DNA of 47,206 nucleotides, taken from contig NZ_JAJUWU010000029.1 of NCBI RefSeq assembly GCF_021390325.1, positions 1-47,206 on the forward strand, given 5' to 3'. A program made the position numbers and the translations under genes. The stretch is from Jiella avicenniae (lineage in GTDB: Bacteria > Pseudomonadota > Alphaproteobacteria > Rhizobiales > Rhizobiaceae). Shown here in pieces: positions 22,235-23,400 of this stretch (its first letter is position 1; the number at the start of each line of letters is the position of its first letter). The notes below the pieces were generated by a model, which did no database searches, was not told the DNA's origin, and worked only from the letters and a program-made list of their open reading frames with translations.

Positions 22235-22918
22235 TCAGGCCGGCTGCGGTCGGTAGGGCATGAAGCGCTGCATGATCACCCGGTAGGGAATCAGCGCGAA
22301 GACGGCGATGGCGAGCTTGACCGTGAAATCCCCGATCGCCCATGAGACCCAGCGCGGCGCCTCGAGGGAAAACACCCCGAGCAGCGGGGCGCTCTCCAGC
22401 GCGAAGCCGTCATTGGCGCCGAGGAAGACGAAGAGCGGCGCGAAGGCGAGGGAAAAGAACGTCACCGTATCGAGCACCGAGCCGCTCAGCGAAGACGCGG
22501 CCGGCGCCCGCCACCAGCTGTCCTGTCGCAGCCGGTTGAACACCGCGACGTCGAGGAGCTGGGCCATCAGGAAGGCGCAGCCGGAGGCGACGGCAATGCG
22601 AAACAGCCGGTCGGCCGTCGTCGAGAAGCCGAGCAGCCCGAGATCGTAGAGGACCGGCGGCACCACCAGCGAGCAGACGACCGCTGCCGCAAAGCCCGCA
22701 TAGACCACCCGCCGGGCGACCCGCGGGCCATAGCGGCGATTGGTGAGGTCGGTGACCAGGAAGGCGAAGGGATAGGTGAAGGCCCCGAAGGTCAGGAGGT
22801 CGGCGAGCTGCAGCCCGCCGATTTCAGCGAAGACCGGATACTGAACCGCGACGTTCGAGGCGAGGACGATCGCGGCCATGGCGGCGATCGGAAGAGCATA
22901 GATTCTGGCAGAAGCCAT
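22235..22918 (-). CDS. yhhQ: Queuosine precursor transporter, YhhQ/VUT family
   Basis: A 227-aa inner-membrane protein of the COG1738 family, which imports preQ0/preQ1 for queuosine modification of tRNA. About six hydrophobic helices are visible. Family features include LQLADLLTFGAFTYPFAFLV, VTDLTNRRYGP and the C-terminal WAIGDFTVKLAIAVFALIPY. The ATG at 22918 (MASARIYALP) is chosen because AGGA lies seven nt upstream and the family starts there. The same leader forms an apparent preQ1-I riboswitch that involves both this AGGA and the start codon, directly supporting the predicted substrate. The gene converges on the SOUL gene. Confidence 0.9.
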   Translation of the reverse strand: MASARIYALPIAAMAAIVLASNVAVQYPVFAEIGGLQLADLLTFGAFTYPFAFLVTDLTNRRYGPRVARRVVYAGFAAAVVCSLVVPPVLYDLGLLGFSTTADRLFRIAVASGCAFLMAQLLDVAVFNRLRQDSWWRAPAASSLSGSVLDTVTFFSLAFAPLFVFLGANDGFALESAPLLGVFSLEAPRWVSWAIGDFTVKLAIAVFALIPYRVIMQRFMPYRPQPA

Positions 22919-22946
22919 TTTTTTATCCTGGGTGATGGAACCAGCG
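22914..22946 (-). promoter_or_regulatory. preQ1-I riboswitch overlapping the yhhQ start codon
   Basis: On the minus strand, P1 CTGG (22944-22941) pairs with CCAG (22931-22928). The loop starts TTCCAT and the conserved CACCC (22934-22930) follows. The A-rich L3 is GATAAAAAA. Pseudoknot P2 pairs CCAT (22938-22935) with ATGG (22918-22915), the start codon plus one base. This matches the known class-I layout GGTTC...CACCC...ATAAAAAA; P1 and P2 differ from the Bacillus aptamer by compensated changes. The Shine-Dalgarno AGGA lies in and next to P1, so ligand binding should block translation. Confidence 0.8.
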
Positions 22947-23002
22947 ATCATATGACGGCGCGATCTCGGCGCGCCGCCGCGGCGAAATTCTCTCCTTCAG
23001 GC

Positions 23003-23088: not shown

Positions 23089-23400
23089 TCAGGCCGCGGT
23101 GGCGGCCGTCTCGCTCGTCTCGGCGACCTTCTTGGCGATCTGGCGCTTCAGAAGCCGGGCGCGCTGGGACAGATCGTCCTCGCTGGCCTTGATGAGGAAG
23201 GCATCGAGGCCGCCGCGATGCTCCACCGTGCGCAGGGCATGGGCCGAGACGCGCAGGCGGAAACGCTGGCCGAGCGCATCGGAGATCAGCGTGACGTTGC
23301 ACAGATTCGGCAGGAACCGGCGACGCGTCTTGTTGTTCGCGTGGGAGACGTTGTTGCCGGTCAGGACGGCCTTGCCGGTCAGTTCGCAGGCGCGTGACAT
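23089..23400 (-). CDS. rpmB: 50S ribosomal protein L28
   Basis: Large-subunit protein L28, 103 aa. Recognised from [32 protein letters not shown] and [20 protein letters not shown]. The Ala/Thr/Glu-rich C-terminal tail is the alphaproteobacterial form, longer than the roughly 78 aa of enterobacteria. No zinc-binding CxxC pairs are present. The gene is monocistronic: a hairpin terminator follows, and a DUF3108 gene is divergent on the other side, a neighbourhood I know from rhizobia. Confidence 0.96.

Follow-up and report, generated by a model that had tools for sequence, protein, structure and literature searches.

The preQ1 riboswitch family is a model for the gating of translation by tiny RNAs. 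Within class I, type II has a longer L2 than the element described below, and type III was reportedly defined by McCown et al. in 2014. For the E. coli yhhQ leader, a type III element, the accessible text of PMC10622847 reports a crystal structure, preQ1 binding, repression of a reporter and a preference for preQ1 over preQ0, and it describes type III as almost confined to gamma-proteobacteria; the structure is PDB 8fza as cited in the available part of a review of the family (PMC11625349). That part of the review places AAGG in the type III P2 and gives the control modes of the family as indirect, partial or full occlusion of the Shine-Dalgarno (SD) sequence, termination and domain docking. 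It describes no start-codon mode, and the terms 'start codon' and 'AUG' occur 0 times in it. Among riboswitches more widely, the available sections of PMC10907184 describe start codons sequestered solely by separate hairpins (add, the Mtb ileS T-box).

We focus here on an element of about 30 nt ahead of the gene for a queuosine-precursor transporter, yhhQ, in a 47,206-nucleotide stretch of the Jiella avicenniae genome (contig NZ_JAJUWU010000029.1; Rhizobiaceae), referred to below as the window. With a probability of roughly 0.86, we take it to be a translational OFF switch, namely a preQ1 riboswitch of class I that most resembles type III, with its P2 shifted off the SD and onto the start codon. 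Such a start-codon-gating variant of class I has apparently gone unreported: a literature search by title or abstract start, with the alphaproteobacterial content of McCown et al. 2014 outside its scope, returned no paper reporting the element, and the available portions of PMC2258182 and PMC8632094 mention none, the latter paper being free of the words 'preQ1', 'queuosine' and 'yhhQ'.

The element and its gene

Inspection of the sequence shows that the minus strand at 22944-22916, directly 5' of yhhQ, is CUGG-UUC-CAU-CA-C-CCAG-GAUAAAAAA-AUG. The parts of the element and the genes beside it are as follows.

23089..23400, minus strand: rpmB (ribosomal protein L28), upstream of yhhQ, from the open reading frame list and profile matches
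22941..22944, minus strand: 5' strand of P1, CUGG (CTGG in DNA), from the sequence and pair counts in 226 distinct leaders
22938..22940, minus strand: L1, UUC, which places the window in the UUC class; in the window strain, a further pair, C22938 with G22915, is possible
22935..22937, minus strand: 5' strand of P2, CAU (CAT in DNA), the anti-start-codon, invariant in 43 distinct cores, for which the search pattern required CAT
22933..22934, minus strand: L2, CA, from the sequence and the leader table
22932, minus strand: predicted preQ1 specificity cytosine, C22932, the 5' neighbour of the P1 3' strand, placed by a match by eye to the E. coli type III position
22928..22931, minus strand: 3' strand of P1, CCAG, from the sequence and the leader table
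22926..22929, minus strand: SD, AGGA, two bases in P1 and two in L3
22919..22927, minus strand: A-rich L3, GAUAAAAAA (DNA letters GATAAAAAA), from the sequence and distinct cores
22916..22918, minus strand: 3' strand of P2, the AUG start codon of yhhQ, from a frame check across loci and two annotated records
22235..22918, minus strand: yhhQ, preQ0/preQ1 transporter (VUT family), from the open reading frame list, TIGR00697 and PF02592

The initial annotation had described P1, the loop and the A-rich L3 at these positions, and their letters are confirmed on the minus strand. It had also held that P1 covers most of the SD AGGA (22929-22926), which is not so, only AG lying in P1 and the rest in L3. 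The role given to the specificity cytosine is taken from work on E. coli type III, as set out in the accessible text of PMC10622847. The base after the AUG is G22915. When the window was scanned for the pattern with 3 mismatches permitted, a single match was obtained, and 10 of 100 shuffles match too; the motif is thus unremarkable within the window alone, and the case against chance is built on its conservation across relatives. A scan for a sigma-70 promoter found none.

Counted from the motif AUG, yhhQ has 227 codons. Its product scores 99.6 bits against TIGR00697 (queuosine precursor transporter; cutoff 50.95) and 96.2 bits against PF02592 (cutoff 27.2), in agreement with the gene assignment first made. 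The order rpmB-yhhQ is present in both annotated Rhizobiaceae records examined, and the motif AUG is the annotated yhhQ start in one S. meliloti and one Rhizobium record. At 233 of 239 motif loci, an open reading frame runs from the AUG into YhhQ. YhhQ lies within 800 nt downstream at 239 of 241, a figure that speaks to position and not to control; at the two exceptions (L240 and L271) the sequence ends 90 and 88 nt past the AUG.

Distribution among relatives

YhhQ was found in 157 of the 297 genomes sampled across the order. Among 30 yhhQ loci from this sample, the motif stands 5' of the gene in all 11 from Rhizobiaceae and in 0 of the 19 others. The 11 family leaders served to build a covariance model, R1, in which P1 was the only helix, the P2 pairs being left out. 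R1 matches 356 of the 394 genomes of the family, in 99 of 109 genera, a count that includes one chance match, in a genome of the same genus as the window (G414) that has no YhhQ at E 1e-10. The order sample yields 12 strong matches, all in Rhizobiaceae (12 of its 13 genomes there), and no strong match outside the family, the remainder standing at E 0.018 or worse. In the class sample of 289 genomes, the J. avicenniae genome alone matches R1 strongly, and two others stand at E 0.003 and 0.004. We attribute the weak matches beyond the family to chance: at 12 loci (L066-L077) the retrieved stretch contains no YhhQ, and two more (L288, L289) have no matching hairpin by eye. A pattern scan of named species gave at least 119 stretches; among the matches listed (80 titles) are Rhizobium, Sinorhizobium meliloti, Agrobacterium tumefaciens, Mesorhizobium, Neorhizobium, Brucella, Bartonella and Aureimonas.

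When 20 of the 38 family genomes negative for R1 were checked for YhhQ, it was present in 12. Two of these 12 (g220) hold a variant with a longer L3 that R1 misses, L303 and perhaps L298 hold a decayed copy of the motif, and in the rest of the 12 no motif is discernible by eye. Small genomes of the family (1.1-1.6 Mb; L297, L298, L302, L303) keep yhhQ, with the motif lost or decayed.

Conservation and covariation

The family was compared at 239 parent loci, 117 from an exact-pattern scan and the others pattern-filtered model matches, which gave a table of 226 distinct leaders, each consisting of 30 nt upstream, the motif and 60 nt of coding sequence. The pattern fixed CAT, C, the A run and ATG, leaving L1 and codon 2 free. 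In the 212 leaders of modal length, mean conservation is 1.82 bits per position in the core, a value inflated because the parent loci were selected by pattern, vs 0.16 in the 30 nt upstream. The specificity C was likewise required by the pattern, yet it is seen by eye in motif-bearing leaders of the unfiltered list, as is the A-rich L3, for which the pattern required four A in the distinct cores.

The same leaders bear on whether the motif is coding sequence. An in-frame ATG at 22951 would place it inside yhhQ as an N-terminal extension, and the longer open reading frame, 22235-22951, does exist in the window. In 50 of the 226 leaders, however, an in-frame stop lies in the 30 nt upstream or the motif, L3 is 8 or 10 nt long in eight of the 226, which breaks the frame, and in both annotated records yhhQ begins at the motif ATG; this reading is scarcely credible, and we reject it on these three grounds.

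L1, unconstrained in the table, begins with U in 226 of 226 leaders and takes three forms: UGG, UGC and UUC. In the first two, which make up the UG class (110 of 226, about half), the third L1 base predicts the base after the AUG: UGG goes with AUG-C in 96 of 96 leaders and UGC with AUG-G in 14 of 14. P2 in this class therefore reaches codon 2; it is SCAU/AUGS, with four pairs, the last of which uses the first base of that codon. In the UUC class (n=116), P2 is CAU/AUG, with three pairs, and the base after the AUG is A in 64 leaders, C in 31, T in 20 and G in 1. The fourth pair is thus absent in 115 of 116, the exception being the window itself, the sole leader of the class with G there; in three relatives of the same genus (L053, L079 and L091) the base is T, C and A, respectively. 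P2 had at first been given as CCAT/ATGG. The added C22938-G22915 pair is possible in the window strain, but the conserved core is only CAT/ATG. The 122 loci found by the model alone give UGG with C in 40 of 40, UGC with G in 10 of 10, and UUC with A in 32, C in 27, T in 12 and G in 1. The base before the specificity C is A in 114 and C in 2 leaders of the UUC class, and A in 81, C in 19 and T in 10 of the UG class, which is also without the UU motif of types I and III.

With only four pairs, P1 hardly varies. It is made of standard pairs in all 226 leaders and is CUGG/CCAG in 224, with two-sided changes in two, CUAG/CUAG (L142) and CCGG/CCGG (L149). The core P2 pairs are invariant in the family because the AUG is fixed as the start at most loci and the pattern required CAT and ATG; covariation in P2 thus depends on the fourth pair and on comparison with gamma-type leaders. 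The leader alignment that the initial annotation had proposed accordingly gives two-sided changes of P1 in 2 of 226 leaders and the fourth P2 pair in 110 of 110 of the UG class.

Pair counts were made on 32 of the 43 distinct cores, those of equal length, with 11 of other length left out; six UG-class cores among these 11 obey the codon-2 rule too. The covariation score was reached by 0 of 500 shuffles, both on the 32-core alignment and on the 15-core alignment of the UG class, and pairing stands at 93.8% in the 32 cores, vs at most 47.7% in slid registers, and at 100% in the 15 UG-class cores. Other controls are adverse. The number of pairs with a two-sided change was reached by 20 of 500 shuffles (32 cores) and 30 of 500 (UG class), that of further pair types by 479 and 455 of 500, respectively, and a +3 slide of the 32 cores (5 pairs, 27.5% paired) has a covariation score of 0.057 vs 0.043 in the true register. 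On a quick tree of 176 YhhQ proteins, in which 68 of 173 inner branches are unsupported, L1 class changes at least 12 times with no UG-class mismatch; independent contrasts on well-supported branches number 3-4, with none opposing, too few for a sign test.

A leader with no RNA structure at all, consisting of a conserved ribosome-binding region and an A-rich spacer, would explain part of this pattern, as the SD AGGA, the spacer and the AUG are conserved in any case. Such a leader would not explain why CUGG and CAU are conserved 5' of the SD, why P1 shows paired changes in two leaders, why L1 predicts codon 2 in 110 of 110 leaders of the UG class, or why CAU/AUG is kept where the AUG is out of frame (below), and we regard it as most improbable. 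The pseudoknot of P1 and P2 remains our reading of the element.

A run of at least four T ends within 2 nt of P1 in 18 of the 226 leaders; in L056-L058 the T run resembles the tail of a terminator hairpin.

Loci without a Shine-Dalgarno sequence

Aureimonas and a few other loci no longer have the SD 5' of the AUG (CCAGCC or CCAGCG). Seven loci of the 239-locus set have CC after CCAG in place of the SD, and at six of them yhhQ is read in a frame other than that of the P2 AUG; L156, the seventh, has the AUG in frame, with a GTG following at offset 15. At all 232 loci with G after CCAG, the AUG is in frame. In the loci without the SD, the GGA of AUGGA lies 8-11 nt 5' of an ATG or GTG in the yhhQ frame (GGA ends at offset 4, and the gap is the start offset minus 5), L158 having a nearer ATG as well. 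To judge from the letters, this GGA would serve as a new SD. Five of the seven fall in one supported clade with Aureimonas, L150 and L158 come from other genera, and the two g220 loci with a longer L3 resemble them. CAU/AUG and the UGC/G pair are retained in all of these SD-less and g220 loci. Kept where the AUG is out of frame, the CAU/AUG pairing thus seems to be selected apart from the start codon.

Proposed mechanism, ligand and physiology

In the mechanism that we propose, the transcript would fold the four-pair hairpin P1, and preQ1, when present, would sit on C22932 between P1 and P2. The CAU of the loop would pair with the AUG start codon, closing an H-type pseudoknot, and the A-rich strand, with half of the SD, would lie along P1. 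With the A-rich strand along P1 and the CAU paired with the AUG, both the SD and the start codon would be out of reach of the 30S subunit, and synthesis of the transporter would stop in a well-supplied cell. When preQ1 is low, P2 would open and yhhQ would be translated. In the UG sub-class (L1 UGG or UGC), the four-pair P2 would take in the first base of codon 2 as well.

The gene content of the strain is consistent with such control. Its genome, which is 97.65% complete, contains Tgt, QueA and QueF and has no match for QueC; it thus probably imports preQ0 and makes preQ1 from it, and a preQ1-sensing brake on the importer fits, with preQ1 the ligand suggested by homology. QueC has no match in 42 of 61 sampled genomes of the family. 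The tie between its absence and the motif is not strict, as a same-genus genome (G316) has both QueC and the motif. The element would also be a hitherto unlisted switch in rhizobia, agrobacteria and their relatives; many of these have no QueC match and probably rely on the transporter for queuosine. Among the genomes sampled for QueC are four family genomes negative for YhhQ (G304, G306, G339, G342); three have QueC and G304 has neither, which hints that import and endogenous synthesis are interchangeable.

Alternatively, the ligand of the same pseudoknot could be preQ0 or a different deazapurine, at least for the UG class, which has G in place of the second L1 U and less constraint than the UUC class on the base 5' of the specificity C; the strain, with no QueC match, should take up preQ0, and 42 of 61 family genomes likewise have no match. 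On the other hand, the UUC loop is near-identical to that of E. coli type III, which prefers preQ1 according to the accessible text of PMC10622847, and with QueF in the genome preQ1 can be made. We therefore consider a ligand other than preQ1 unlikely. A structured leader that tunes yhhQ translation with no small-molecule ligand, as a fixed attenuator or a protein site, is more doubtful still, as the bases reported to contact preQ1 in E. coli type III are kept (the L1 U, the specificity C, the G closing P1 and the A-rich strand), together with the matching gene. A preQ1 riboswitch is the reading that we carry into the comparison below.

Relation to known riboswitches

The initial annotation had taken the Bacillus aptamer as its comparison and had suggested a test against RF00522, the lack of a match being one half of what it would have taken as a refutation. 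This covariance model finds no match in the window at the gathering score, and none in a 261-base region or the whole J. avicenniae genome at E 10. In scans with all families of Rfam 15, it equally finds none in the E. coli type III leader (L078, 3180-3220) at E 10 or E 5, nor in 17 other non-alpha loci (L339-L352, L355-L357) at E 5; the absence of a match thus says little here, since a known type III leader is also unmatched at the limits used. In a single-family control with RF00522, all 14 control genomes, including E. coli, match somewhere at E 10 or better. E. coli type III, rather than the Bacillus aptamer, is the closest relative known. A pseudoknot that pairs with the yhhQ AUG, as proposed at the outset, finds support in its conservation across the family, in the covariation of both P1 and P2, in the gene and in a loop nearly identical to that of E. 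coli type III.

The yhhQ leaders of 12 of 14 loci (L359-L371, L373) in another alphaproteobacterial family (f74, which is perhaps Rhodobacteraceae) carry a different preQ1-I-like hairpin, mostly CCAAG-U(C/G)N-CCG-NNN-C-CUUG-NNAAAA-CGG, with P2 as CCG/CGG over the SD; f74 yhhQ leaders have no Rfam preQ1 match at E 5.

As for class I in general, the element is an H-type pseudoknot of P1 and P2, for which P1 changes in 2 of 226 leaders and the fourth P2 pair in 110 of 110 speak, the shuffle controls being mixed. It also has U first in L1 (226 of 226) and C before the P1 3' strand, an A-rich 3' strand and a queuosine transport gene downstream. With type I (C. antarcticum), it shares the H-type pseudoknot and, in the UUC class, the UU motif. 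The available text of PMC11625349 gives type I two ligands and a UC preceding the P1 3' strand; the window, on the other hand, has AC, the UUC class has A in 114 of 116, and T before the C occurs in 10 of 226 leaders, all of the UG class. With type II (T. tengcongensis, B. subtilis), the H-type pseudoknot, the A-rich L3 and AC before the P1 3' strand are in common, but type II acts by partial SD occlusion or transcription termination (Table 1 in the same text). Direct-occlusion riboswitches (SAM-II/V, SAM-III, SAM-SAH) likewise have aptamer and expression platform in one fold, but they embed the ribosome-binding site, as described in the available sections of PMC10907184.

The comparison with E. 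coli type III is the closest. The E. coli leader reads UUGGG UUC CCU CA C CCCAA ... AAAAAGG, with P2 as CCU/AGG, and its nine-base loop differs from that of the window at one base, CAU in the window vs CCU (UUCCCUCAC against UUCCAUCAC). The gene is the same, L1 is UUC, L3 is A-rich, NA mostly precedes the specificity C and P2 has three pairs (the pairing being read from the sequence). The type III UU flanking the P1 5' strand, with A before the C, is found in the window and the UUC class (A in 114 of 116); the UG class does not have the UU flank. The differences are equally clear. In type III, the P2 3' strand is AGG, within the AAGG of the SD; here it is AUG, the start codon, in the window and all distinct cores (where the pattern required ATG), and the SD lies 5', in P1 and L3. 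P1 is CUGG/CCAG, and the UG class (110 of 226) has a four-pair P2 that extends into codon 2. We file the element as a variant, and not as type III, because its P2 does not hold the SD.

Leaders of the type III form account for 47 of the 51 yhhQ leaders examined, one being from E. coli and the others from 50 non-alpha Pseudomonadota genomes (50 of the 59 such yhhQ places listed). P2 in these 47 is CCU/AGG in 46, UCU/AGA in 1 and CAU/AUG in 0, and in five of them the linker, L3, is 30-53 nt long, which makes their P2 less sure. The UCU/AGA leader (L345, non-alpha and type III-like) is a compensated change of P2. In the 47, the P2 3' strand is followed by T in 33 cases, C in 8, A in 6 and G in 0; G there is thus rare in both groups (0 of 47 type III-form leaders and 1 of 116 in the UUC class), and the G of the window, odd for both, may weaken or alter its switch.

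We think it fairly likely that Rhizobiaceae hold a fourth kind of class I preQ1 riboswitch, one that gates the start codon and arose from an SD-gating, type III-like ancestor by a change of the loop from CCU to CAU; that the pseudoknot sets the first base of codon 2 in roughly half of the leaders; and that Aureimonas and a few genera reverted to SD gating, with CAU/AUG kept though the AUG is no longer the start. A one-base loop difference accompanies a change of target, from the SD, as in E. coli, to the AUG, within one kind of aptamer, and the natural variants on both sides, together with a covarying codon 2, form a ready set with which to test whether it is the SD or the start codon that the ribosome needs free.
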